From positions 1 to 64,000 of the forward strand of contig CAMCWK010000013.1 in NCBI GenBank assembly GCA_945882615.1: a stretch of DNA of 64,000 bases, given 5' to 3'. This document shows positions 17,324 through 55,454 of this stretch, one piece after another. Position numbers and translations under genes: made by a program. The stretch's first letter is position 1. Every line of letters starts with the position of its first letter. This stretch comes from Rhizobium sp. Q54 (GTDB lineage: Bacteria; Pseudomonadota; Alphaproteobacteria; Micropepsales; Micropepsaceae). The notes beneath the pieces are model-generated. The model did not search any database, was not told where the DNA came from, and saw nothing but the letters and a program-made list of their open reading frames with translations.

Positions 17324-18757
17324 TTAGTACGGCGTCGGCGAACGGTCTTTCCAGGTGCCGGTGCAGGCAGTGGAAGGACGGTCACGGCAAGTCTGCCAGA
17401 TGGTGGGGACGGAGCTGCCCGCGATATACACCGCCGAAATCGACTTGGTGTTGCGGATGTCGGCCAGGGGATCGTCATCCATCACCAGCAGGTCGGCCCA
17501 CTTGCCGGCCTCGATGCTGCCGATGGTCTTGTCGCCCAGCCAGGCGGCATTGTCGCTGGTCGCCGACTTGATGGCCTCCAGCGGCGTCCTGCCCGCCATC
17601 ACTTCCATCTGCAGTTCCTCATGGGCATTAAAGCCGGGGAAGCGGCCATTGGGGCCGCTGTCGGTGCCCATGCCGGTTTCCACGCCGGTCTTCACCATCG
17701 CGGTGTAATTGTCCATCGCCTGCACCACCGTGCGGCCCATGTCGGCGAACAGCCGCTTCTCATAGGGCAGGCCCGGGAAACGGATGGCGCCCAGCATCAC
17801 GGCCTTTTCACGTTCCGGGCTGCGCAGCGCGCTCATGGTGCCGGGCGTCACGCCGCGGGTGAAGAAGGGATCGTTGATCCACGGCATCACCGCCATGGAG
17901 TAGACGATCTCGCGAGAAAGGGTCGAGGACATCTGCCATGTGCCCTTGGCCTTCATCATGTCCATCAGTTCTTTGTCCACGTCCTGGTCGCGCACGATGT
18001 GGCCAAAACCGTCCACGCCCTGGCGCACCAGTTCCTTGGCATCGTCGAGATAATAGACGTGCGCCATGACCTTCAGTTTGCGCTTGTGGGCTTCGTCGAT
18101 GGCTGCCTTGCTCACTTCATATGTCATCTTGACCGGTATCATCCGGCGTTCATCATCCATCCAGATCTTGATGAAATCCACGCCCTTGGCGGCCTGTTCG
18201 GCCACCGCCTTGCGCGCTTCTTCCGGGGTGCCGACAGGCACGTTCAGACCATAAAGACCGCCATAACCGCCCTTGAACACCAGACCCTGGCCCGAGGTGT
18301 AAACCCGCGCCATGCTGGGACGGCCGGCGCGCAAATCCTTGCGGATGTCGAAGATCACATCCTTGTCGGTGCCCGCAACCTGCACCGTGGTCACACCGTA
18401 AGCAGCGTATGTCTTCAGATCGGCTTCGACATTGGCGCGGTCATAGAATTTAACGTCCTGGGTCACGTCCTTCATCATGCCGACATGGACATGGCCGTCG
18501 ATGATGCCCGGCATCACAAACTTGCCGCTGAGGTCGCGTGTGGTGGCGCCGGCGGGCGCCTTGAGCTGCGCCATCGGGCCGACCCATGCGATCTTGCCGT
18601 CGGTCATGACAATCGCGGAAGCCGGCGCGGCCGGCTTGCCGGTGCCATCGATCACCGTAACGTTGCTGAGGACCGTGGTTTCGGCGCCGGCGGGCAGCGC
18701 CGTCACAGCGACGGCGAACAGGGCCGCGGCGGTGGCGCCGAATTTCAGATTACGCAT
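17324..18757 (-). CDS. Exported amidohydrolase-family metalloenzyme
   Basis: The 477-residue protein starts with a Sec signal peptide (MRNLKFGATAAALFAVAVTALPAGA) and is likely periplasmic. The amidohydrolase fold is shown by VMPGIIDGHVHVG (metal-binding His89 and His91), VDFIKIWMDDE (candidate bridging lysine), VMAHVY, GFGHIV and the late GTDSG aspartate. The family cleaves amide, ester or cyclic bonds. The natural substrate is not evident. It is probably co-transcribed with the downstream MFS gene. The C-terminal tail is cysteine-containing and less conserved in appearance. Confidence 0.82.
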   Translation of the reverse strand: MRNLKFGATAAALFAVAVTALPAGAETTVLSNVTVIDGTGKPAAPASAIVMTDGKIAWVGPMAQLKAPAGATTRDLSGKFVMPGIIDGHVHVGMMKDVTQDVKFYDRANVEADLKTYAAYGVTTVQVAGTDKDVIFDIRKDLRAGRPSMARVYTSGQGLVFKGGYGGLYGLNVPVGTPEEARKAVAEQAAKGVDFIKIWMDDERRMIPVKMTYEVSKAAIDEAHKRKLKVMAHVYYLDDAKELVRQGVDGFGHIVRDQDVDKELMDMMKAKGTWQMSSTLSREIVYSMAVMPWINDPFFTRGVTPGTMSALRSPEREKAVMLGAIRFPGLPYEKRLFADMGRTVVQAMDNYTAMVKTGVETGMGTDSGPNGRFPGFNAHEELQMEVMAGRTPLEAIKSATSDNAAWLGDKTIGSIEAGKWADLLVMDDDPLADIRNTKSISAVYIAGSSVPTIWQTCRDRPSTACTGTWKDRSPTPY

Positions 18758-18845
18758 TTACAACTCCCATTTGTGTGTGCCGCGCATTGCTGCCCGGGGC
18801 CCTTGAAGCGATGGATCTGCTCGCTTCCCCGTCCGGTTTGATTCC

Positions 18846-18867
18846 TCAAGCAATTTCTGTTGCTTGA
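18846..18867. promoter_or_regulatory. Candidate operator: perfect 8-6-8 inverted repeat
   Basis: TCAAGCAA-TTTCTG-TTGCTTGA lies 89 bp upstream of the amidohydrolase start. Its size and symmetry fit a dimeric helix-turn-helix repressor site. No regulator gene is adjacent, and no T run follows on either strand. Confidence 0.45.
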
Positions 18868-18908
18868 ACCGGAAAATACCGGGGCGAACCTTAGGGCAGC
18901 GATGCGCG

Positions 18909-18943
18909 AAAAAAAAGCCGCAAGAATTACGCTGCACTGCGGC
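18909..18943 (-). terminator. Minus-strand Rho-independent terminator (second of a tandem pair)
   Basis: Read on the minus strand: GCCGCA, a 15-nt loop, TGCGGC, then eight T residues. It lies upstream of the amidohydrolase and behind no recognised gene. Confidence 0.6.
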
Positions 18944-18981
18944 ATTTCCCTGGAGCATTAAAGCGCGGCGCGCAGCTGGCG

Positions 18982-19017
18982 CGAAAAAAAATGCCGCCTT
19001 CCGATGAGAAGGCGGCA
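18982..19017 (-). terminator. Minus-strand Rho-independent terminator (first of a tandem pair)
   Basis: Read on the minus strand: TGCCGCCTT, an 8-nt loop, AAGGCGGCA, then an uninterrupted T run (A-rich on the plus strand at 18984-18991). This strong terminator must end a minus-strand transcript starting in 19018-19350, where no known gene is visible. Confidence 0.8.
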
Positions 19018-19048
19018 CCAATTTCGCGGGTTGATCCCGCATTATGTT

Positions 19049-19270
19049 TTATGTCCAGTCGGGTGGCAGGATCAGTTGATCAACCCACGCCCGTTCGGCG
19101 TCCGCCGATAACTCGTTGTTTTTTGTGTTCTTTCCTTCAACCCCAGCCGACGGTCTGCGCCGTCTTCGCTCATTTGCGGCATCTTCTTGCGGACACCTGC
19201 AAGAACGATACGACAAGATGTCACTGAAGACAAACTGACGGCGGCATTTTCGCACAGCATCGTCAATCAT
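19049..19270 (-). CDS. Possible 73-residue protein of unknown function, or a small RNA
   Basis: The 598-bp gap 18758-19355 holds no recognisable gene. The only open frame placed correctly for the 18982 terminator encodes 73 residues, ending ELSADAERAWVDQLILPPDW-T, 31 bp before the terminator stem. It is rich in Arg and Cys and matches no family I know. The start has no clear ribosome site. A non-coding RNA ending at the terminator is an equally good explanation. Confidence 0.2.
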   Translation of the reverse strand: MIDDAVRKCRRQFVFSDILSYRSCRCPQEDAANERRRRRPSAGVEGKNTKNNELSADAERAWVDQLILPPDWT

Positions 19271-19355
19271 CGTGTTGCAGTGCGGTGGTTTTGCCCTGAG
19301 CGGTAAACACGCCTATTTTGCCGCAAGGGCAAAAATATAAAAACAGGGGCACGTG

Positions 19356-20198
19356 ATGGAAATTTCTCGCCGCCGGCTTTTGACCAATAGTGGTCTTGCG
19401 ACATGCGGACTGCTGATCCCGGACATCGCCTTCGCCGCCAATCCCGTCATCCCCGAGGCCACCATCGCCGCGCGCGGCACCGCGCCCGTGATCGCAAAAA
19501 AAGTGAACCGGCTGTTCAACACCAAGCCGGTGATCGACCAGCCCAACGATCTGCAATTCGCCAATGGCGATCTGTGGATTCTGGACCAGAAGAATCCCAA
19601 CACGGTTTTCACCGTCAACCCGAAGACCGGCGCGGTGATTTCCAGCGTCGTGACCGAATCCCTGCATGGCAGTGGCATCACCTATGGCAATGGCGCTTGG
19701 TTCATCACTTCGACCAAGGTGACGGAAGGCTATCCCTCGACCCTGAAAGTCGATCCCAAGACCGGCAAGACGCTGGGCAAGTGGGAAACGCCGGGCTGGG
19801 GCATCTATGGCGCCTATCTCACCCGCACGCGCCAGCCGGGCGACCTGCCGCTGGAGTCGGGCGGCCATGGCGTCAAATGGGCCGGCAATGGCCAATACTG
19901 GCTGGCGACGCCCGCCGGCGGCAAACTCTATCTGGTCAATGCCGAGCAGGGCACGGTTGCGCGCAGCATCCAGGCGCCCACCATCCGCACCCACGGCATT
20001 GCGCTGGAAGGCGATTACATCTGGTGCGCCGGCAGCGATCAAGCCGAAATCTACAAGCTGCGCATGGCCGACGGCGGCATCGTCGGCAAGGTCATGCTGG
20101 ACAAGAAGACCGATCCGTCGCTGCATGGGCTGGACATCAAGGATGGCGTCCTGTGGTATTGCGACGCCGCCGAAGGCTGGGTCTGCAGCCTGACGTAA
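19356..20198 (+). CDS. Exported beta-propeller protein (SMP-30/quinoprotein-like repeats)
   Basis: A 280-residue protein with a twin-arginine signal (SRRRLLTNSGLATCG...AFA), so probably Tat-exported to the periplasm. The body is made of YVTN/SMP-30-like blades: NDLQFANGDLWILD, GSGITYGNGAWFITS, GHGVKWAGNGQYWLATP, THGIALEGDYIWCAG and LHGLDIKDGVLWYCDA. Such folds include lactonases and non-enzymatic propellers; metal ligands cannot be assigned with confidence. GTG 19353 and ATG 19356 are adjacent; ATG is chosen. A possible -10 (TATAAA) lies at about 19336. It sits 34 bp before the enolase gene, probably in one operon. Confidence 0.7.
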   Translation: MEISRRRLLTNSGLATCGLLIPDIAFAANPVIPEATIAARGTAPVIAKKVNRLFNTKPVIDQPNDLQFANGDLWILDQKNPNTVFTVNPKTGAVISSVVTESLHGSGITYGNGAWFITSTKVTEGYPSTLKVDPKTGKTLGKWETPGWGIYGAYLTRTRQPGDLPLESGGHGVKWAGNGQYWLATPAGGKLYLVNAEQGTVARSIQAPTIRTHGIALEGDYIWCAGSDQAEIYKLRMADGGIVGKVMLDKKTDPSLHGLDIKDGVLWYCDAAEGWVCSLT

Positions 20199-20232
20199 GA
20201 ATTACAAAACAAGAAAGTTTATGGAGGGAATT

Positions 20233-21477
20233 ATGGATCGCCGCGCATTGATGACGGGTATGCTTGGCACGGCTGCGGCTTCGCTGTGGACGCCGCCCGA
20301 CGCCTTCGCCCTGGGCCTGCCCAAGGACAAGATCAAGCGCGTGCGCTACTACAAGACGCCCACCGATGCGGCGGGCCGTCCCAACATCCATCAGCCGACC
20401 TTCAACCAGTCCACCAACGTCGTCACCATCGAGACCGAAAGCGGCCTGATCGGCATCGGCGAGGGCGGCGAGCCCTCCACCATGCAGCAATGCGCCGGGC
20501 TGATCATCGGCCAGGACCCTTTCCGCATCGAGCATCTGTGGCAGCGCATGTATCGCTCTTATTTCTATCCGGCGGGACGCGAGAAGACCCATTCGCTGGG
20601 AGGCCTCGACCTGGCGCTGTGGGATCTGAAAGGCAAGGCGCTGGGCGTGCCGGTGTGGCAACTGCTGGGCGGCAAGGCACGCGACCATATCGAAACCTAT
20701 GCCACCTCGTATCCGACGCCAAAGGGCGGCACCATTGAAGACGCAGCGCGCAACTGCATCGCCGAAGGTCATCGCGCCTATCGTCTCGGTCCTATCGCGG
20801 GCCGCGAGTTCGACCGCTTCCAGGCGGTGCAGGATTCGTTCAAGGCCTGCGAACTGGCGCGCAAGGGCGCAGGAAAAGACGGCGGCTGGGCGATCGATTT
20901 CCATGGCGTGTTCGACCAGGAAGACGCCATCAACCTGGCGCGGATGATCGAACCCTTGCGGCCCTATTTCGCCGAAGACCTGGTGCGCGGCGAGAATATC
21001 GAAATCTACAAGACCATCCGCCCGCGTCTGGGCGTGCCGATCGCGGTGGGGGAAATCTACGGCGCCAAGTGGGACACCAACATGCTGATCGAACAGCAGT
21101 TGATCGATTATGCCCGCTGCACCGTGCCCAATGTCGGCGGCATCACCGAATACATGAAGATCTGCGCCATCGCCGAGACCCATTATGTCGGCATGATCCC
21201 GCACTTTACCGGCCCGATCGGCGAAACCGCGCTGGTGCACTGCCTGACTGCCACCTCGGTCAAGGCGCTGATGGAAATGACCGCCTCGGGCCGCCAGCCC
21301 TGGCCGTATGCGCCCGAATGCTATGACTTCAGGAACGGCAAGCTGTGGCCGAACGAGCGAGTCGGCCTCGGCGTGACGCTCGATACCAGCAAGCTGCAAT
21401 TGATCGGCGACTGGAGCGAACCTTATGCCCCCATCCCGATCAACCATCGCCCGGATGGAAGTTTCACAAACTGGTGA
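20233..21477 (+). CDS. Tat-signal enolase-superfamily protein, galactonate-dehydratase-like
   Basis: A 414-residue protein of the mandelate racemase/muconate lactonising group. Visible active-site pieces match D-galactonate dehydratase: IDFHG (Asp222, His224), AEDL (Glu248), VGE (Glu274) and IPHFTGPIG with His324. Family members dehydrate acid sugars to 2-keto-3-deoxy acids. Unusually, the N-terminus (MDRRALMTGMLGTAAASLW...DAFA) looks like a Tat signal, implying periplasmic action. ATG 20233 is preferred because GGAGG (20223-20227) precedes it; ATG 20221 overlaps that site. DgoA and DgoK, next steps of the galactonate route, are encoded convergently just downstream. Confidence 0.82.
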   Translation: MDRRALMTGMLGTAAASLWTPPDAFALGLPKDKIKRVRYYKTPTDAAGRPNIHQPTFNQSTNVVTIETESGLIGIGEGGEPSTMQQCAGLIIGQDPFRIEHLWQRMYRSYFYPAGREKTHSLGGLDLALWDLKGKALGVPVWQLLGGKARDHIETYATSYPTPKGGTIEDAARNCIAEGHRAYRLGPIAGREFDRFQAVQDSFKACELARKGAGKDGGWAIDFHGVFDQEDAINLARMIEPLRPYFAEDLVRGENIEIYKTIRPRLGVPIAVGEIYGAKWDTNMLIEQQLIDYARCTVPNVGGITEYMKICAIAETHYVGMIPHFTGPIGETALVHCLTATSVKALMEMTASGRQPWPYAPECYDFRNGKLWPNERVGLGVTLDTSKLQLIGDWSEPYAPIPINHRPDGSFTNW

Positions 21478-21486
21478 GGCTCACCC

Positions 21487-21534
21487 TTCGACAAGCTCAG
21501 GGTGAGGAGTAGTCCTCATGCTGAGCCTGTCGAA
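21487..21534. repeat. Imperfect inverted repeat, dispersed-element type
   Basis: The arm TTCGACAAGCTCAGGGTGAG at 21487-21506 (extending to 21508) is mirrored by 21513-21534, whose complement begins TTCGACAGGCTCAGCATGAG, about 18 of 22 positions matching. It fills the gap between the convergent enolase and dgoA genes. Elements of this sequence type are widely scattered in sphingomonad and caulobacter-like genomes. Confidence 0.75.
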
Positions 21535-21546
21535 GCAGGAGGGCGT

Positions 21547-22164
21547 TTAAACCGCTGCCTTAAACGCTTCGACGCATTTGCGTGCGCGGCTGCCGATCTC
21601 TTCGTCGCTGAAATCGGGCTTGAACAGTTCCGATCCCAGGCCGAAGCCGGCCGCACCGCACTTGCGCCATTCCGTCATGTTGGCGGCGCCGACGCCGCCC
21701 ACGGCGTAAACCGGCACATCCTTGGGCAGCACCGCCAGCATCGCCTTCATGTGATCGGTGCCGCCGGTGGAGGCGGGAAACAGTTTCAGGGTGCGCGAAC
21801 CCGCGGCGATGGCGGCAAAGCCCTCGCTGGGGGTGAAGAAGCCCGGCATCACCGTCATGCCTTTTTTGACGCCGTGTGAAATCACCGCCGGATTGGTGTT
21901 GGGCGTCACCAGCAGCTTGCCGCCCACATCCGCCACGCGGTCCACATTCTCCACCGTCAGCACGGTGCCTGCACCGGTCAGGCAGCGGTCGCCAAACGCC
22001 TTGGCGAGAATCTCGATGCTCTTGAACGGTTCCGGCGAATTCAGCGGCACCTCGATGGCGCGGAAACCCGCCTCGAACAGCGCCCCCGCGACGCCTTCGA
22101 TACGCGCCGGCGTCACGCCGCGCAGGATGGCGACAAGAGGAAGCTCGGCCAGAAAATCGCTCAT
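21547..22164 (-). CDS. dgoA: 2-dehydro-3-deoxy-6-phosphogalactonate aldolase
   Basis: Splits 2-dehydro-3-deoxy-6-phosphogalactonate into pyruvate and glyceraldehyde 3-phosphate. The 205-residue KDPG/KDPGal aldolase barrel shows LVAILRGVTP, FRAIEVPLNSPEP, GAGTVL, LLVTPNTNP and LKLFPAST, the last holding the Schiff-base lysine. The N-terminal MSDFLAELPLVAILRG is typical of the DgoA branch rather than Eda. It overlaps the end of dgoK by 4 bp. Confidence 0.93.
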   Translation of the reverse strand: MSDFLAELPLVAILRGVTPARIEGVAGALFEAGFRAIEVPLNSPEPFKSIEILAKAFGDRCLTGAGTVLTVENVDRVADVGGKLLVTPNTNPAVISHGVKKGMTVMPGFFTPSEGFAAIAAGSRTLKLFPASTGGTDHMKAMLAVLPKDVPVYAVGGVGAANMTEWRKCGAAGFGLGSELFKPDFSDEEIGSRARKCVEAFKAAV

Positions 22165-23093
22165 GAAAAGACTTCCGTGTGAATCCGCACCAGTCCGGCC
22201 AGCGCACAGGCATCGCCGTCGAGCGTTTTTGTTTTCATACCATACTGCGCCAGCGACTTGTCATAAAGCGCGGCCAGCGCCGGGGTGCAGATCAGGTGCA
22301 CCGTATCGGACGGGGAAATATCCAGCAGCGATACCGCCGTATCGACATCCGCGCCCAGCACCAGTCCCGACAGATAGGACGCGCCATCGGCCTTGGGCAT
22401 TTCGCCCGTCACCACCCGGCTGCGGGTGCTGAACAACAGATGCAGCAGGTCGGCCTGGGCATTGCGGCGGAAGAAATCCAGTCCTTGCGTGAAGGCATGG
22501 CTGTCGGCCCGCACCTCGCCGCCGCCCGGCGCCAGCACGCTATGCTTGCGCAGTACTTCAAAAAGTTCGCCCGACAGCGCGGTCTGGAATTCCATCACCG
22601 CGCCCTCCTCCACCACCACCCATTTGGCATGGGTGCCGGGCATGCAGAAGATGCGGCGGCCCCTGGCCAGTTCGGGATGGAGACTGAGCGCGCCCAGGAT
22701 CTGCACCTCTTCGCCGCGCATCACATCGGGCGCGCCGGTGCGGTTGACGCATTTCAATCCGGGCACGATGGCGATGGCGCGGCCATCCTCTTCAAAGCGC
22801 AAGGCGGCGGCGGCAATCGCTTCGGGCCGGGCCGGGCAGCTGAGATAGGGCACTTCCTTCCAGCCGATGGTGGACCCCACCATGCCGCCCAACAGCGTGG
22901 GCAACTTGCCATGCGCCCCACTTCCATACCTTGAGTCCCACGGCGCCACGGCGGCGGCAAAGCGCCCGGCGCAATCGGGCGCCGCCGCGCCCTCGCCCTC
23001 GCCCCGCGCCAGCACATGGCCGGACCTGTCGCACAGATAAAGCCGCAGGCGGCTGGTGCCCCAGTCACCGGCAACGAAGGCAGGTTCACTCAT
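22161..23093 (-). CDS. dgoK: 2-dehydro-3-deoxygalactonokinase
   Basis: Phosphorylates 2-keto-3-deoxygalactonate, providing the substrate of DgoA. The 310-residue ASKHA-fold kinase starts with FVAGDWGTSRLRLY (ATP phosphate loop) and carries LLGGMVGSTIGW, DVMRGEEVQILGAL and FCMPGTHAKWV, all DgoK hallmarks. First gene of the dgoK-dgoA operon. A -10-like TATAAA (minus strand, 23102-23107) ends only 8 nt before the ATG, so the leader may be very short or absent. Confidence 0.94.
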   Translation of the reverse strand: MSEPAFVAGDWGTSRLRLYLCDRSGHVLARGEGEGAAAPDCAGRFAAAVAPWDSRYGSGAHGKLPTLLGGMVGSTIGWKEVPYLSCPARPEAIAAAALRFEEDGRAIAIVPGLKCVNRTGAPDVMRGEEVQILGALSLHPELARGRRIFCMPGTHAKWVVVEEGAVMEFQTALSGELFEVLRKHSVLAPGGGEVRADSHAFTQGLDFFRRNAQADLLHLLFSTRSRVVTGEMPKADGASYLSGLVLGADVDTAVSLLDISPSDTVHLICTPALAALYDKSLAQYGMKTKTLDGDACALAGLVRIHTEVFS

Positions 23094-23170
23094 GACGGCT
23101 TTTTATACGCGCGCGCGACCCTTGTCGAACCGCGCGGACCTTCGCACCCAATTGACGTCGCGCAAGAAAA

Positions 23171-23542
23171 CTAGGCGGTCATCTCCGTCGCCAACGTGCA
23201 AAGCCTCTCCAGGTTGAAGGGCTTGCGCAGGATCTGGATGTCCCGCAGTTTCACAAACTGGGGCGGCGGATCCTCGGCATAGCCCGTCATCAGCAGCACT
23301 TTGAGTTCGGGCCTGAACACCAGCCCCGCCGTCACCAGCGCATAACCGTCCATGCGCGGCATCTTGATGTCCGAAACCAGCAGCGTGATCTGCGGATTGG
23401 CTTTCAGCAGTTCCAGCGCCTCCACCCCATCGCCCGCCTCGAACACCTTGAAACCGGCATCTTCCAGCATCTCGACCGCGAGCACGCGCAGCATGGCTTC
23501 GTCTTCGGCGACCAGGATCGGCGGCAGGGCATCTGTCATCAT
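23171..23542 (-). CDS. Single-domain response regulator
   Basis: A 123-residue receiver domain with no output domain. The acidic pair AEDE is near residue 13, phospho-acceptor Asp58 is in LLVSDIKMPRMDGY, the switch threonine is Thr86 (LLMTGYA), and the conserved lysine is Lys107 (LRKPF). It overlaps the histidine kinase stop by 4 bp, so the two are translationally coupled and are surely partners. With no output domain, it must act through protein contacts or a phosphorelay. Confidence 0.9.
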   Translation of the reverse strand: MMTDALPPILVAEDEAMLRVLAVEMLEDAGFKVFEAGDGVEALELLKANPQITLLVSDIKMPRMDGYALVTAGLVFRPELKVLLMTGYAEDPPPQFVKLRDIQILRKPFNLERLCTLATEMTA

Positions 23543-24882
23543 GCGTCCTCCCCATCCCTGGGCATCAGGATGGTCACGGTGGTGCCCTTGCCGGGCGTGC
23601 TGTCGATGGTCAGATAGCCGCCCGACTGACGCACAAAACCGAAGGTCATGGAAAGACCCAGGCCCGTGCCCTTGCCCAGCGGCTTGGTGGTGAAGAACGG
23701 ATCGACGGCGCGGCGGCGCACCTCTTCGGGCATGCCGACGCCGGTATCGCTGACCGACAGCGCCACATAGGCGCCGGGAATGAAGCTCTCCCCTTCCACC
23801 TCCGGCGGCGGCGCATCCAGCGTTACATCGCGGGTCCGGACCATCACCTTGCCGCCATCGGGCATGGCGTCGCGCGCATTGATCGCCAGATTGAGAATCA
23901 CATTCTCCATCTGGTTAACGTCGCACAGGATGAAGCCCCGCGCCGTTAGCTGCATCTCGATCTGCACTTTTTCCCCCACCGAATGACGGATCAGTTCCGA
24001 CAGGCCCTGGGCCAGGGTGGAAAGATTGACCCGCTGGGGGGTCAGGGGCTGACGGCGCGAAAAAGCCAGGATGCGCTGGGTAAGATGGGCGGCGCGGTCC
24101 AGCGCCTCGTCCGCCGAAGCTATATAGGTGCCGGCCTGGCCGGCGTCCGGGCCCAGCCGTCGTTTCAGCAGGCGAAGATTGCCCTTCACGATCATGATCA
24201 GGTTGTTGAAGTCATGGGCGATGCCCCCCGAAAGCTGGCCCACCGCTTCCATCTTGTGACTCTGGCGCAGCGCCTCCTCGGTCTTGCGCCGCTCCTCCAT
24301 CTCTTCCTGAAGCCGGGTATTGACGATGGAGAGCTGCTGGGCGCGGCGCGCCAACGCGTTCTGCGAAAAACTCAGAACCGCGATCACCAGAGCGCCCATG
24401 GTCACCAGCAGGATGAGCCCGCCATAACGGGCATAGCGCCGCTCGATCGGCTCGGTGACGGCGCGCAGCATCACGGTGCCGACCGCGGTACCGTTCTGGC
24501 TGGCACGCACGGTGATGTCCATGAAGGCGTCGCCGAAGGTGGCGCCCTCAGGGGGGGCGGCGGGGGGAAGCCGCGCGCCACCGCGCGAGAAACCCGCCAG
24601 CAGATGGGCTTCGCCGTCATAAACGCCCGCCGCCTGCAGTTCGGGATTGGCGGCCAGCGCCTCGACATACTCCTGCGCGGCGCGGCGGTCATCGAACACG
24701 ATGGCGGCGGTGACGCTGGCGGCCAGAATCTGCGCCTGCTCGCGGATGTTCTTGACCTGCTGGGCGGTATAAAGCCGCTCCTCATAAATCGCCATCAGCA
24801 CGCCCGCCGCCAGCAGCATGGCGGCGGCGGCCAGCGCCATGACCACCGACGGGTTCCAGATCTGCCGGCCCTGCGCGCTCAT
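23539..24882 (-). CDS. Membrane sensor histidine kinase with CHASE8-like periplasmic domain
   Basis: The 447-residue protein has a first membrane helix at about residues 12-32, a periplasmic segment to about 150, and a second helix at 154-172. The periplasmic part ([42 protein letters not shown]) resembles the CHASE8 sensor of YfiN-type diguanylate cyclases. A coiled linker leads to HisKA ([10 protein letters not shown], His223) and HATPase ([29 protein letters not shown]). It overlaps yfiR and the response regulator by 4 bp each. Confidence 0.88.
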
Positions 24883-30222: not shown

Positions 30223-30258
30223 AAAGCCGCGCGCCAACGAAATTTGAGGACGTTTAAA

Positions 30259-32586
30259 ATGTTCAAGACGGGCAAGATGCGTAAGAAAAACGGACTTTTC
30301 ATGGGTGCGGCCGCCACCATCGCGCTGGGCGCCGTTGCGGCTTTTGGCCCCGCCGCCATGGGTCAGAACGCCGCCGGCCCCTTCACCACGGCACAGGTCA
30401 ATGACGGACGCGAGGCCTATGCCGCGGCTTGCGCCTATTGCCATCTGCCCGATCTCACCGGCACCAATGACGCGCCGGCCCTCGGCGGCACCGCCTTTGT
30501 CGGCGCCTGGGGCAACCGCACCACCGCCCAGCTCTTCAGCAAGATTCATCTGACCATGCCGCTGGGCGGAGCGGGCAGCCTGAGCGAAAAGCAGACCGCG
30601 GACATCGTCGCTTACATCCTGGAGCGCAATGGCGCCAAGGCCGGCGGCACGCCGCTGACCGCCAAGACCGCGGTTGCGATCGGCAGCATCGCCAGCGGCA
30701 AGCCGCCGGCTGCCGCGCCGCGCACCGCCCAAGCCACACCCAAGCCCACACCGAAGCCGGTCGCGCCGGCCGCCACCAAGCCGCAATCGGGCGGCGGCAC
30801 CCGAGCCCAGACCAGCGGCGCGCAGGAATCCGCGCCAGCCTCCGGCGCCGGCAACGCGCCCGCGCAGAGCCTTTTCCAGCGCGCCATGGCCGGCGTGCGC
30901 GTGCCCGATCCGGGCGGCTTTGGCCTGCCCACCCGCTTCGGCCTGATCCACGAAGGCAACATCCAGAACTATCAGCCCGTGACCGACGAGATGCTGCGCA
31001 ATCCGCCGGACAGTTCCTGGCTGATGTATCGCCGCAATTATCAGGGCTGGAGCTACAGCCCCCTCAACCAAATCAATACCGAAAACGTCAAGTCGCTGAC
31101 CCTGAAATGGATGTGGTCGCTGCCGGAGAACGGCACGCTGGAAATCACGCCGCTGATCCATAACGGCATCCTGTTCATCTGGGGCACCAGCAACACCATC
31201 CAGGCGCTGGATGCCAAGAGCGGCGAACTGTTGTGGGAAAACCGCCTGGGTCCGGCGCCGCGCCGCCCCGGCCCCGGCCCCTCGACCGAGGAAACCCGCT
31301 CCATGGGCCTGTGGGGCAACAACATCTATGTGAACACGCCCCAGGGCTATCTCTATGCTCTCGACGCGCGCACCGGCAAGGAAGTGTGGAAGACCCACAT
31401 CACCGACGAGAAGATGTTCGCCAACAATAGCGGCATGGTCGGCGGCTCCACCGGTGGCGTGATCATCATCAAGGGCCGCGTGTTGGTCGGCATGACCAAT
31501 TGCGGCCGCAAGGGCGACGACAATCACTGCTATATCAGCGCCTATGACGCGCGCACCGGCAAGCGTGACTGGAAATTCGTCACCGTCGCGCTGAAGGGCC
31601 AGAAGGGCGGCGACACCTGGAACAACCTGCCCGACAATGAACGCAAGGGCGGCGAGACCTGGATCGCGGGCACTTACGATCCCGAAAGCAACACGACCTA
31701 TTGGGGCACGGCGCAAGCCAAGCCCTGGCGGCGCGACCTGCGCGGCTCGGGCGATGGCGCCACCGAATATGCCAACTCGACCGTCGCGCTGGATGCCGAC
31801 ACCGGCAAGCTGAAATGGACCTATAACCACGCGCCGGGCGAATCCCTCGATCTCGACGAGGTGTTCGAGCGCGTGGTGGTGACGCACGGAAACCAGAAGT
31901 CGCTGCTCACGATCGGCAAGCCGGGCATCCTGTGGAAGATCGACGCCAACACCGGCAAGTTCCTGGCCGCAAAGCAGACAGTGTTCCAGAATGTCTATGA
32001 GAACTTCGACGAGAAGACCGGCAAGGTCGTCTATCGCAAGGACATTCAGAACCAGAAGGTGAGCGACTGGCTCTCCTCCTGTCCCGGACCGCAGGGCGGC
32101 CATGACTGGCAGGCGACCAGCTATCATCAGCCCAGCGATGCGCTGATCATTCCCTTGCAGCAGTCCTGCGTCTTCATGCTGGGCAACGGCTCTCAGACCT
32201 ACTTTGAGATGCCCGGCACCAACGGCAACAATGGCCGCCTGTCCGCCTATCGGGCGCGCGACCTCAAGCCGCTCTGGTCGTTCCAGCAGCGTTCGCCCTT
32301 CCTGACCGGCGTGGTCTCGACCGCGGGCAACCTGGCCTTTGTCGGCGACTTTGACCGTGTCTTTCGCGCGGTAGACGCCCGAAACGGCAACACGCTGTGG
32401 AAGACCCGGCTCGGCACCACGGTCCAGGGCTATCCGGTCAGCTTCAGCGTGGACGGCAAGCAGTATATCGCCGTCACCACGGGTCTGGGGGGCGGCAGCC
32501 CGCAGAACAAGCCGGCCACCTTGCTGCGCGAAGTGAAGCGCCCGGCCAACGGCTACAACCTGTTTGTGTTCGGTCTGCCAGACTGA
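30259..32586 (+). CDS. PQQ-dependent dehydrogenase with N-terminal cytochrome c domain
   Basis: A 775-residue periplasmic quinohaemoprotein. After a signal segment, a cytochrome c domain carries the haem motif CAYCH (Cys58, Cys61, His62) and a likely axial methionine in [10 protein letters not shown] Pro/Ala-rich linker (about residues 135-195) leads to the PQQ propeller: [47 protein letters not shown] and [11 protein letters not shown] (candidate catalytic aspartate). It probably oxidises an alcohol or sugar and passes electrons to the respiratory chain. ATG 30259 follows GAGG. Most quinohaemoproteins carry the haem domain at the C-terminus, so this order is unusual. No pqq genes are in the window. 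Confidence 0.88.
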
Positions 32587-39827: not shown

Positions 39828-41417
39828 TCATGACAAAGTAACCGAGCCAAAACCGTCGGCCGGTCCATTGGGACCTGTGATCACATTCTTGAGCCGCTTG
39901 TTGTAGAAGAACATGGGCTGGCGCTCGAACAGCCAGACCATCGCGACGTCGCGCGTCAACACATGCTGCAGCCGGCTGTAAAGATGTTGCGCTTCGGCCT
40001 TGTCCACCGCCACCGCCGCCTTGTGGAACAGCGCGTCCACTTCCGGATTGCTGTAGCCCTGGATATTGGTTTGCGGCACGCCCTTGCGGATGTTGGAGGA
40101 CAGAAAGAATCGCGCCGTACCGATGGCCGGATCGCCATACTGGCCATAGGAATTGCAATCGACGTCGAAGTCCCAGTTGCCACTGCGGCGGCTGAAGGTT
40201 GGCCAGTCGGTGGATTGCAGCTCGACGTCCAGCCCCACTTCCGACAGCGCCTGCTTGACGTAATGGCACCCGCGCGTCCAGTGCCCGCCACCATCGGGAA
40301 TCATCATCAGGCCGAAGCGATGGCGCACGCCGCCGCGTCCCGGCTTCAATCCCATTTCGTCCAGCAGGGCGCGGGCGCGCGCCTGATCGAAGGGATATTT
40401 CACCACCGCCTTGTCGTCATGATAGGGCAGGTTGGACGGGATCGGGCTGGTGGCCACTTTCCCCAGGCCGAAATTGATCGCCTTGACCAGGAAATCGCGG
40501 TCGATGGCATGGACAAAGGCGGCGCGGAAGCGGCGGTCGCTGAACGGCCAGCGGCGCTGGTTCATTTCCATCACCGTGATCTCGCCGGTGCCGTTAAAGG
40601 CATCGTCGCGCGCCACCACATTGGGATTGGCCATCATCCGCGAATTGACCACCGTGTCGATGTCATCGGCCATGGCCAAATCCACCGCGCCCGATTCCAT
40701 CGCCACCAGCCGCTGCTCCGGCGTGGGACAGACGCGGTAGTAGATGCCGTCCATGCCCGGCTGGCCGGGCCGCCAGTAATGATCGTTGCGGGTCAGGTGG
40801 ATGAACTGGCCGCGCACCCAGCGGTTGAACTTGAACGGCCCGGTGCCGACCGGTTTGAAGTTGTAGGGATTGGTGCGGAAATTCGTGCCTTCGAAGATAT
40901 GCGCCGGCATCATCGGCGCGCTCGACGCCATCAGCGACAGCAAAAAGGCATTGAAGGGCTGCTTCATCTCGAAGCGCAATGTGTACCGGTCTATCACCTT
41001 GATGGCGCGCACATGGCTGAAGGCGTTGCGGCTGCGCGGATTGAGCTGGGGCAGCATCACGCCGCAACTGAACGCCACGTCGCGGGCGGTGAAGGGTACG
41101 CCGTCATGCCAGCGCACATCGGGGCGCAGGTAAAAAGTGTAGGTCATGCCGTCCGGCGACATTTCAAAGGCGCGCGCCAGATTGGGATGCGGCCTGAACT
41201 GCCAGTCGAACAGCAGCAGCGACTCGTTAATGTTGCCGCAGATCTCCTGCATGATGCGGGTATTGAACAGCGGATAATTCAAGTGCGCCGGTTCATCCGT
41301 CATCATGGCGTTGATGGTGCGCTGGCGCGCCGTGGTGCCGGGGGCTTGCGCCCATGAAGGCACGGCGAAGACACCCGCCGCCGCGGCGCCCAGCATCGCG
41401 CGGCGGTCCCAACCCAT
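39828..41417 (-). CDS. Periplasmic solute-binding protein of the ABC importer (SBP family 5)
   Basis: A 529-residue family 5 extracellular binding protein. The N-terminus GWDRRAMLGAAAAGVFAVPSWAQ is a signal peptide with a twin arginine. The mature part has the family pattern: DEPAHLNYPLFNTRIMQEI, LARAFEMSPDGMTYTFYLRPDVRWHDGVPFTARDV, PVGTGPFKFNRWVRGQFIHL and HAIDRDFLVKAINFGLG. Family members bind peptides, nickel, opines and other compounds. The M81 partners suggest a peptide-like ligand. It starts at the stop of the first M81 gene. Confidence 0.93.
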   Translation of the reverse strand: MGWDRRAMLGAAAAGVFAVPSWAQAPGTTARQRTINAMMTDEPAHLNYPLFNTRIMQEICGNINESLLLFDWQFRPHPNLARAFEMSPDGMTYTFYLRPDVRWHDGVPFTARDVAFSCGVMLPQLNPRSRNAFSHVRAIKVIDRYTLRFEMKQPFNAFLLSLMASSAPMMPAHIFEGTNFRTNPYNFKPVGTGPFKFNRWVRGQFIHLTRNDHYWRPGQPGMDGIYYRVCPTPEQRLVAMESGAVDLAMADDIDTVVNSRMMANPNVVARDDAFNGTGEITVMEMNQRRWPFSDRRFRAAFVHAIDRDFLVKAINFGLGKVATSPIPSNLPYHDDKAVVKYPFDQARARALLDEMGLKPGRGGVRHRFGLMMIPDGGGHWTRGCHYVKQALSEVGLDVELQSTDWPTFSRRSGNWDFDVDCNSYGQYGDPAIGTARFFLSSNIRKGVPQTNIQGYSNPEVDALFHKAAVAVDKAEAQHLYSRLQHVLTRDVAMVWLFERQPMFFYNKRLKNVITGPNGPADGFGSVTLS

Positions 41418-46982: not shown

Positions 46983-47846
46983 TCAGGCCAGCGCCGTCCT
47001 GTACATCGCGCTGAGCGCCGCCCAGGCGCGCTCAGCTTGCGCTTCGTTGTAGACGGCGCTGCCCTTGACGCACCAGCCATGGTCGGCGGGGTAGACCTCG
47101 ACCGTCGCGGGGCGGCCGGCGGCGGCGAAGGCTGCTTTCAGGTCATCCTTCACCGTCGGCTCCTTCGCATCGTCATTGCGCGCCTTGGCGATCAGATAGG
47201 CGGCATTGGTCTTGGGGATCAGCAAATGCGGGCTGTTGGGGTTTTTCGTCACCAGCCCGCCGCCATGGAAGCTTCCCACCGCCGCGATCCGGCTGGGCAC
47301 TGCGGCGGCGGTCCGGAACGACAGCGGGCCGCCCATGCAATAGCCCTGCACGCCGGTTTTGCGGGTCTTGCTGGTCTGGGCTTGCGCGTCCAGGAACGCC
47401 AGATAGGCGACCGCATCGCGGTCCACGCCGTCATCGGTCATGGCGCCGCGATAGCCCATCAGCCGGGCGCGCTGTTCGGGGTTGGAAAAATCGAACTTGT
47501 CGTCGATCACCGGCGCCTTGGCCGAGCGATAGAAGGGATTGACCACCAGCACCACATAGCCTTCGCCCGCCAGGCGGCGGCCCATGTCGCGGAATGCGGG
47601 GCGCAAGCCCATGATGTCGGGCCAGATCAGCACGGCGGGCCATGTGCCGGTGCCGACGGGATGGAACAAGGCCGAGTCCGAGGTGCCGTCGGGCGTTTTC
47701 ACCGCCACGTCTTTTTCAACGACGTTGGATTGGGCCAGCGCAGGCGCGGCCGCCATGCCGGCGGTCGCCACGGTCAGAAGACCGAAGCCGCGCCGCGAAA
47801 GCCGGGAATCTTCAACAAGGCCGGGGTGAATGTCTTCATCGCACAT
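46983..47846 (-). CDS. Exported dienelactone hydrolase family protein
   Basis: A 287-residue alpha/beta hydrolase. A Tat signal is visible (LSRRGFGLLTVATAGMAAAPALA), so it probably acts in the periplasm. The nucleophile is Cys170 in GVQGYCMGGPLSF, characteristic of the dienelactone hydrolase family, with a likely catalytic histidine in YPADHGWC. Usual members open dienelactones from chloroaromatic catabolism; exported forms have less defined substrates. Confidence 0.88.
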   Translation of the reverse strand: MCDEDIHPGLVEDSRLSRRGFGLLTVATAGMAAAPALAQSNVVEKDVAVKTPDGTSDSALFHPVGTGTWPAVLIWPDIMGLRPAFRDMGRRLAGEGYVVLVVNPFYRSAKAPVIDDKFDFSNPEQRARLMGYRGAMTDDGVDRDAVAYLAFLDAQAQTSKTRKTGVQGYCMGGPLSFRTAAAVPSRIAAVGSFHGGGLVTKNPNSPHLLIPKTNAAYLIAKARNDDAKEPTVKDDLKAAFAAAGRPATVEVYPADHGWCVKGSAVYNEAQAERAWAALSAMYRTALA

Positions 47847-54326: not shown

Positions 54327-54433
54327 AGCACCTTCCGATCAACGGGGCCGCCCGCAAACGCGCTTTGGCTTCCAGAAGGGACCAAAGTCTCTGAGTCCGG
54401 GTTAAATTTGGACTCTCGGTGCGGACCTTCATG

Positions 54434-54472
54434 TCATAATCTTCGAGAAGCCCCACGGCTGTCCGATTATGA
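54434..54472 (+). promoter_or_regulatory. Hairpin leader in front of the TIM-barrel isomerase gene
   Basis: TCATAATC (54434-54441) pairs with GATTATGA (54465-54472), and AGCC-CCAC-GGCT forms an inner stem. The structure ends 1 nt before the AAAGGGA ribosome site, so it may control translation or mRNA stability. Confidence 0.4.
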
Positions 54473-54485
54473 AAAAGGGAGAGAC

Positions 54486-55454
54486 ATGTTAAGCCGCAGA
54501 AACCTGATGGGCACCGGCTTGGCTGCCGCCGCTGTCGCCGCCTCCGCGCCGCACGCCTTTGCGCTGCCGGGCGACAAGATCAAATACGCGACCAGCGGCA
54601 ATCAGTTCAGCCCGATGCAGCCGCATCCCGAAGAGGGCATCAAGATGACGGCCTATTACGGCTATCACGGCATCGAACCCTTTGATAACCAGACGCGGAA
54701 ATTCCGGGACAGGGGCCAGAGCTTCGAGGTGTTCAAGGACAGGCTGGACGAAGTCGGGCTGGAGCTTTGCACCATCGGCAGCGGCGGCCAGTATCTGGAC
54801 ACCACCAAGTTCCAGGACACGCTGAAGAACAACCTGGACAATGCCAGATACGTGAAGCAGTTCGGCTGCAATCACCTCAAGGTCAATCTCAACAGCCGTC
54901 CCAGCGATGAGCGCGACATGACGGTGGCTGAGCTGAAGGTCATCGCCGGCCATATCAATGAGGTCGGCAAGCAGATGGCCGATGTCGGCGTCCGGTTCGC
55001 CTTCCATCCCCATGCCTGGACGGTGTGCGAGCGCACGCACGAGCTGGATTACCTGATGGAGAACACCGATCCGCGCTATGTCTGGCTGACCTTCGATCCG
55101 GGCCATGCCACGCTGGGCGGCATCGATCCGATGCGCGTGATGGACATCTATTATTCGCGCCTCGCCGCCCTGCACCTGAAGGACGCCGAAGCCAAGTACA
55201 ATGTCCGGCGGGCCGGCTGGAAGGGCCCTGCCCCCAGCCAGGAAGAGCATCGCCGCGTGCATCTCTACAAGCGCATGGGCGCGGGCGGCGTCGACTTTCC
55301 GGGCATCTTCAAGATCCTGCGCGCCAACAAGTGGACCGGCTGGGCGACGCTCGACTTCAATGCACAAGGGCGTGACGGCACCATTCAGGACGATATGAAC
55401 CGCCACAAGGAGTATCTGGTGAACGTCCTGAAGGCCGACCTCAAGCACATCTGA
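54486..55454 (+). CDS. Exported sugar phosphate isomerase/epimerase-like TIM-barrel protein
   Basis: A 322-residue protein with a Tat signal (MLSRRNLMGTGLAAAAVAASAPHAFA). The barrel (AP endonuclease 2/xylose isomerase-like) shows YYGYHGIEPF, VGLELCTIGSGGQY, CNHLKVNLN, VRFAFHPHAWTVCE, VWLTFDPGHA, LAALHLKDAEAKYN and VDFPGIFKILRANKWTGWATLDF. Family members include sugar epimerases and inosose dehydratase; here the location would be periplasmic, which is uncommon. ATG 54486 follows GGGAGAG. The frame is open to 54408, but that would bury the signal. Confidence 0.8.
   Translation: MLSRRNLMGTGLAAAAVAASAPHAFALPGDKIKYATSGNQFSPMQPHPEEGIKMTAYYGYHGIEPFDNQTRKFRDRGQSFEVFKDRLDEVGLELCTIGSGGQYLDTTKFQDTLKNNLDNARYVKQFGCNHLKVNLNSRPSDERDMTVAELKVIAGHINEVGKQMADVGVRFAFHPHAWTVCERTHELDYLMENTDPRYVWLTFDPGHATLGGIDPMRVMDIYYSRLAALHLKDAEAKYNVRRAGWKGPAPSQEEHRRVHLYKRMGAGGVDFPGIFKILRANKWTGWATLDFNAQGRDGTIQDDMNRHKEYLVNVLKADLKHI

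Follow-up and report, generated by a model that had tools for sequence, protein, structure and literature searches.

The window analyzed here, a 64,000-nucleotide stretch of Rhizobium sp. Q54 (contig CAMCWK010000013.1, positions 1 to 64,000), belongs to a genome of 2.85 Mb in 56 contigs whose named relatives are alphaproteobacterial metagenome-assembled genomes (MAGs). Positions 19356-23093 of this window hold two convergent gene pairs. On the forward strand, a gene for a twin-arginine translocation (Tat)-type propeller protein of 280 aa (19356-20198; DUF6923, 34.3 bits) is followed after 34 nt by the gene for a Tat-type enolase-superfamily protein of 414 aa (20233-21477), which we propose to be an exported sugar-acid dehydratase. 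The reverse strand carries two overlapping genes, dgoK (22161-23093; PF05035, 273.5 bits, cut-off 25), encoding 2-keto-3-deoxygalactonokinase and representing the sole PF05035 gene of the genome, and dgoA (21547-22164; NF006600, 280.7 bits, cut-off 207), encoding 2-dehydro-3-deoxy-6-phosphogalactonate (KDPGal) aldolase. A palindrome-like repeat (21485-21506), present in one copy in the window, lies in the gap where the enolase gene and dgoA converge. An earlier note on this DNA had proposed that galactonate is dehydrated in the periplasm by the enolase-superfamily protein and that 2-keto-3-deoxygalactonate (KDGal) is then imported for use by cytoplasmic DgoK and DgoA.

Analysis of the N-terminus of the enolase-superfamily protein revealed a predicted Tat signal peptide (MDRRALMTGMLGTAAASLWTPPDAFA; 20233-20310, forward strand) with a twin arginine, an uncharged hydrophobic stretch and an A-x-A motif, with probable cleavage after AFA. 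The signal is conserved in relatives: the arginine pair was kept in 22/22 clade proteins (the protein of the window with its 17 orthologs in other genomes, plus 3 proteins of a sister clade and 1 from an Acidobacteria MAG), and the hydrophobic stretch varied in length and sequence. A ribosome-binding-like GGAGGG stretch lies just upstream of the ATG at 20233, 31 residues precede the start column of Escherichia coli DgoD in the alignment, and the AlphaFold model had a predicted local distance difference test (pLDDT) score of <50 at residues 1-25. The partner propeller protein also has a predicted Tat signal peptide (19356-19436, forward strand), with R5 and R6 invariant in 11 aligned sequences and cleavage again inferred after AFA. 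The genome encodes TatC, and a TatB-like gene (assigned by eye) adjoins it. These features suggest that the enolase-superfamily protein is probably exported via Tat. No signal was found on DgoK or DgoA, and both the Tat-like signal and the predicted cytoplasmic location of these two enzymes were upheld.

The genome encodes 14 MR/MLE-type enolase-superfamily proteins, not counting enolase itself. Tat-like N-termini were identified in 10 of these 14 paralogs compared with 24/166 among the other genes nearby, a biased background that consists of genes around the paralogs called with a home-made gene caller; one paralog dropped by the caller (L030b) was scored from its own sequence. In a tree that also contained DgoD and RspA of E. 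coli, seven changes of the Tat label were needed, at least four of which were forced by well supported branches; the tree has no outgroup root and contains long branches (L032b, L033, L030b and L035), and only the minimum of four changes was used. Repeated gain or loss of the signal is thus indicated, both for the window clade and for the DgoD-like, ManD-like and RhmD-like lines. These data bear on the alternative that the Tat-like N-terminus is unused or inefficient and that the protein is a cytoplasmic dehydratase of the ordinary DeLey-Doudoroff route, as signal-less E. coli DgoD is in the same gene company. The evidence for export comes from sequence; nevertheless, retention of the arginine pair throughout the clade next to a freely varying hydrophobic stretch, the Tat-type propeller partner and paralogs, and the repeated label changes on the tree make this alternative very improbable.

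Membership of the protein in the MR/MLE group of the enolase superfamily was supported by PF02746 (60.5 bits) and PF13378 (134.7 bits), both above their cut-offs, and by the metal-binding acids D222, E248 and E274. The best NCBIfam model was DgoD (NF010624), with a score of 199.3 bits against a cut-off of 311; the ManD model (NF043051) scored 187.7 bits against a cut-off of 550, and the protein fell under the cut-off of every NCBIfam model listed. Because its score is below the DgoD cut-off, the protein, which is 31% identical to E. coli DgoD, was not classed as DgoD. When the protein was aligned with DgoD and RspA of E. coli, DgoD residues D183, H185, E209, E235, D258, H285 and E310 fell opposite D222, H224, E248, E274, T297, H324 and E348 (20896-21276, forward strand). 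We take the residue roles, including the His-Asp dyad H285-D258, from E. coli DgoD. Six of the seven catalytic positions are thus retained, with the dyad His kept (H324) and the dyad Asp258 replaced by Thr (T297). E. coli RspA likewise has Thr at the D258 position, and the D-x-H motif is present in both reference proteins. The galactonate-dehydratase active site described in the earlier note therefore stands at six positions and fails at the seventh, which is ManD-like. The beta-2 motif reads YRLG in place of the FKLN of DgoD, and the loop after beta strand 2 is short (YRLGPIAGREFDRF); ManD proteins are longer there, with an inserted loop that presumably holds the catalytic Tyr.

Across 26 sequences from several phyla, D222, H224, E248, E274, H324 and E348 were invariant. 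The AlphaFold model (pLDDT 81.8) matched solved folds in the PDB with Z scores of 42.9 (2gl5) and 39.5 (3rr1), and its closest structural neighbors (Z about 40 to 43) include many that are named dehydratases. The conserved catalytic residues and the dehydratase-like fold therefore identify a dehydratase-type member of the superfamily that is neither DgoD nor ManD by these tests. The chemistry of the superfamily is diverse, and the replacement of D258 by Thr could fit a racemase, epimerase, cycloisomerase or catalytically altered member instead of a dehydratase; we consider this improbable in view of the retention of D-x-H, H324 and E348 in all 26 sequences and the dehydratase names of so many neighboring structures.

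We searched 37 same-genus genomes, including that of the window, for matches to the enolase gene (E <= 1e-100). This analysis revealed a dgoK gene in 12/12 genomes with the enolase gene compared with a DGOK-family gene in 6/25 without it (Fisher P = 1e-5, uncorrected for kinship). The enolase gene directly adjoined dgoAK in 10 of the 12; it lay 3.7 kb off in G006 (a sister-clade copy) and about 39 kb off in G014. In most genomes with the enolase gene, the leuB-to-pepF neighborhood, including leuD, is inherited as one block. A second genomic context of the enolase gene by dgoAK, with thymidylate-synthase-like and SspB-like genes (by eye), was seen at L064 and L066, and in G008 and G006 a clade member lies by dgoAK in a setting other than the leuB-pepF block.

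Within the genus, the dgoA-dgoK loci that lack the enolase gene (L095, L097 and L100) all carried a cytosolic dehydratase of the IlvD type together with an SMP-30 lactonase (3/3; at L095, genes missed by the gene caller were found by tblastn). An IlvD-type dehydratase was found at 0/17 loci with the enolase gene, several of which are short contigs, so that its absence there is weak. For these counts, loci on the same contigs as others (L071-L074, L076 and L077, identical to those of G001, G036, G018, G012, G016 and G015) were counted once. Three genomes with DGOK-family genes and no dgoA match within 19 kb (G022, G028 and G029; L096, L098 and L099) were left out of the 3/3, as was G014 (L105), in which a dgoAK locus carries a xylonate-type IlvD (42%), an SMP-30 lactonase (36%) and an SSS transporter, with the enolase gene about 39 kb away. 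The presence of an IlvD-type dehydratase in the place of the enolase gene at dgoAK loci is the strongest comparison for an exported dehydratase, a proposal that genome comparison supports better than the sequence of the window does by itself. Also in its favor, the genome of the window has only two IlvD/Edd-family proteins, one IlvD-like (by eye) and one xylonate-type (NF009560, 1059 bits). In a wider search, matches to the enolase gene (E <= 1e-80) were found in 2/385 genomes of the class, both of the same genus, with at most four candidates scored per listed genome; together with a scan of 84,980 species, which relies on short patterns, this suggests a narrow spread.

NCBIfam cut-offs were passed by 3/14 paralogs, namely L029 (DgoD, 318 bits) and L031a (DgoD, 362 bits), both Tat-type, and L036b (rhamnonate dehydratase, 767 bits), which is signal-less. 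The earlier note had called for a search for a second, signal-less dgoD; this yielded none, as 0/4 signal-less MR/MLE proteins passed the DgoD model (cut-off 311) and both that passed carry Tat-like signals. Signal-less L030a was considered as a possible cytosolic galactonate dehydratase, with scores of 219 bits (DgoD) and 228 bits (AraD), both below the cut-offs; an L030a-like gene (by eye) lies beside an aldehyde dehydrogenase gene near dgoK at L104 (G057), an arrangement reminiscent of a 3,6-anhydrogalactonate route. An alternative substrate has to be weighed: the protein may be an exported dehydratase for another acid (a pentonate, 6-deoxy-hexonate, gluconate or plant polysaccharide acid), its adjacency to dgoAK being partly inherited order, with galactonate handled by an exported paralog such as L031a. 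The beta-2 motif and the dyad position are unlike DgoD, and L031a is above the DgoD cut-off and 42% identical to E. coli DgoD. In addition, the sister clade adjoins arabinofuranosidase-like genes (L028 and L065, by eye), and in G006 (L063) the enolase gene abuts a gene for a signal-less short-chain dehydrogenase/reductase (SDR) whose best solved matches are L-2-keto-3-deoxyfuconate 4-dehydrogenase structures (256 bits), making it a predicted cytosolic user of a 2-keto-3-deoxy acid. Against this alternative stand the co-occurrence with dgoK and the finding that the enolase gene takes the slot of an IlvD-type dehydratase at dgoAK loci; we regard the alternative as unlikely, though it is the most substantial of the three considered. 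A further paralog cluster on one strand of contig C10 (L036:9006-17442) encodes Tat-type rhamnonate-dehydratase-like, PQQ-like, Rid and DgaE/SelA-like pyridoxal-phosphate proteins. The amidohydrolase encoded with them has a Sec-like N-terminus, and the cluster may represent an exported route for amino-sugar acids.

The genes present, the conservation of the signal, the metal and His residues of dehydratase type and the association with dgoAK are all seen in sequence, and from them we infer a route with a predicted periplasmic step. An aldonic acid would be formed outside the cytoplasm by pyrroloquinoline quinone (PQQ)-type dehydrogenases and exported lactonases; the enolase-superfamily protein, exported folded through Tat, would dehydrate this acid in the periplasm, with D-galactonate or a near relative as the most likely substrate; and the 2-keto-3-deoxy acid would enter through a putative importer, after which DgoK would phosphorylate it and DgoA would split it into pyruvate and glyceraldehyde-3-phosphate. 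The need for this uptake step follows from the predicted export of the dehydratase and the cytoplasmic location of DgoK and DgoA. We put the prospects of the full chain, an exported aldonate dehydratase feeding DgoK, at about even, and those of export by itself higher. In the form given by the earlier note, the exported dehydratase and the imported 2-keto-3-deoxy acid are supported by the Tat-type signal, the signal-less DgoK and DgoA and the dgoAK association; D-galactonate is a candidate substrate.

Several points weigh against this route. The Thr at the dyad Asp position and the score below the DgoD cut-off mean that the substrate may not be galactonate, and the Tat-type paralog L031a, the better DgoD match, could be the real galactonate dehydratase. 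The synteny is largely one inherited block, and the association tests are therefore not independent. Export is a prediction from sequence, and the Tat calls follow an approximate rule of our own that also flags some doubtful proteins among the 24/166 other genes. The importer of the 2-keto-3-deoxy acid is hypothetical. Finally, the xylonate-type IlvD enzyme of the genome could serve in the cytoplasm instead. A cytosolic xylonate-type cluster on contig C6 (L128) holds an IlvD-type dehydratase together with SDR, MFS, FAH-like and gluconokinase-like genes (these four by eye).

Candidates for upstream oxidation and lactone hydrolysis were found in the window and elsewhere. One candidate upstream enzyme is a PQQ-type dehydrogenase (30244-32586, forward strand; PF01011, 182.8 bits; PF13442, 34 bits) that combines a cytochrome c domain with a Sec-like N-terminus; it scored 330.7 bits with TIGR03075, below the cut-off of 480, and is retained in the block at L054, L061 and L070. 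Contig C2 (46-50 kb; L122-L123 and L126) carries the gene of a Tat-type Amidohydro_2 protein beside a tandem pair of PF10282 lactonase genes whose products have Sec-like N-termini. In G014 (L062), the gene row runs from a PQQ glucose-type dehydrogenase through a PF10282 lactonase, again with a Sec-like N-terminus, to the enolase ortholog. Locus L118 of G015 groups the genes for two Tat-type proteins, one MR and one Amidohydro_2, with those for a Tat-type propeller, a PF10282 lactonase and a PQQ-cytochrome dehydrogenase. These two loci, the SDR locus of G006 and the PQQ and lactonase genes fit one scheme, in which sugars would be oxidized, hydrolyzed and dehydrated outside and the 2-keto-3-deoxy acid used inside. 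Extended to the genus, several sugar-acid pathways would run outside the cytoplasm and yield periplasmic 2-keto-3-deoxy acids, with only the last steps inside. They would draw on PQQ dehydrogenases, exported lactonases and Tat dehydratases from the window clade and from DgoD-like, ManD-like and RhmD-like lines, at least four subfamilies in all; we advance this extension tentatively, at somewhat less than even confidence. A Tat-type 2-keto-3-deoxygluconate (KDG)-aldolase-like protein at L028 suggests that cleavage may occur outside too, which would be unusual for a cleavage enzyme. This DHDPS-family protein (L028:5695-6753, contig C1; PF00701, 148.5 bits) is encoded near a 62% paralog, and its PDB relatives include the KDGal-aldolase-like YagE.

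The propeller protein accompanies the enolase-superfamily protein closely, its gene being found in 9/12 genomes with the enolase gene and 0/49 without it. The earlier note had described it as lactonase-like, a role we rejected: the protein matched no PF10282 or SMP-30 model, exported PF10282 lactonases occur elsewhere in the genome, and the predicted fold (AlphaFold, pLDDT 77.3) is nearest to glutaminyl cyclases. The best match was the five-bladed glutaminyl cyclase 3mbr (Z 24.1, root-mean-square deviation 2.2, 209 residues aligned); glutaminyl cyclases and YjiK gave Z scores of 22 to 24, followed by NHL propellers at about 17. The fold matches listed included none of the PF10282 or SMP-30 type, which excludes nothing. 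The Pfam search (E <= 0.001) listed DUF6923 alone and no cyclase model, and a sequence search of the PDB gave no match below E 0.08. Four His residues, H104, H171, H213 and H257, each before a Gly, were invariant in 11 sequences.

A nearby gene for an ACS-type transporter of the major facilitator superfamily (MFS) had been put forward as the importer, and the amidohydrolase encoded next to it as an enzyme acting before the dehydratase. The MFS protein scored 273.8 bits with TIGR00893, the D-galactonate transporter family, below the cut-off of 395. No MFS match (E <= 1e-90) was found in G006, G008 or G014, which carry the enolase gene; this search covered 37 genomes, compared with 61 elsewhere, and left G031 outside although its locus (L059) shows the MFS gene, and in G018 (L056) the gene is partial, at a contig end. 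The amidohydrolase-MFS pair is also conserved in G047, which belongs to another family; there it lies by a GntR-like gene (by eye), the enolase gene is absent and dgoK is about 44 kb away. Because the pair persists in that family in the absence of the enolase gene, it is probably a separate unit. On these grounds neither the MFS protein as a dedicated KDGal importer nor the amidohydrolase as an upstream step could be maintained.

The gene set resembles the E. coli dgoKADT operon (L119) for DeLey-Doudoroff D-galactonate catabolism, in which DgoK, DgoA and an enolase-superfamily dehydratase are likewise encoded together. It differs in that the dehydratase is Tat-type with Thr at the dyad Asp position, no DgoT-type gene directly adjoins and the gene order is convergent. 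The protein also resembles the ManD/RspA D-mannonate dehydratase family, with close structures (Z about 41) and the D-H-E-E-T-H-E pattern of E. coli RspA, and differs from it in the Tat-type signal and the lack of the loop that we take to carry the catalytic Tyr. The same-genus cytosolic IlvD-type galactonate/arabinonate routes (L095, L097 and L100) share the downstream dgoA and dgoK, but there a signal-less IlvD-type dehydratase and an SMP-30 lactonase occupy the slots. Many divergent MR-family paralogs have been described in the enolase-superfamily expansion of SAR202 (PMC10444878, PMC6946804) and were proposed to act in non-phosphorylative sugar or sugar-acid breakdown (PMC10444878); the parts of these two papers covered by our search contained neither "periplasm" nor Tat or twin-arginine. 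In contrast, the genome studied here has 14 paralogs, of which 10 are Tat-type. Within the titles, abstract starts and passages of the open-access literature that we searched, we found no report of a Tat-exported enolase-superfamily dehydratase.

Pseudomonads and acetic acid bacteria oxidize glucose to gluconate in the periplasm with PQQ enzymes, and aldonate dehydration is usually regarded as cytoplasmic. The proposed route resembles periplasmic glucose oxidation in that a quinoprotein dehydrogenase and a lactonase act on the sugar outside the cytoplasm; here dehydration is also predicted to occur outside. If so, the cell would import 2-keto-3-deoxy acids instead of sugars or aldonates and would need an importer for them, quinoproteins would draw electrons from the sugar first, and a shared sugar would be converted to a product that few neighbors can use. 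Exported dehydration would also simply explain the ten Tat-type enolase-superfamily paralogs in this lineage, and the label "galactonate dehydratase" on such genes would hide their site of action.

Other features of the window were also recorded. Upstream of the amidohydrolase gene, a conserved intergenic region of about 600 nt (18758-19355) contains a strong terminator-like stem with a T run (18990-19019, reverse strand), which could mark the end of a small RNA or belong to a leader. No Rfam family was assigned to this region, and an RNA search of 18700-23700 gave two sub-threshold matches at chance level. Further predicted Tat-type proteins include a xylose-isomerase-like TIM barrel (54408-55454; PF01261; 110 bits with the IolE model, below its cut-off), another of which lies at L028:4457-5515, a solute-binding protein (39828-41417; PF00496) and a dienelactone hydrolase (46983-47846; PF01738).

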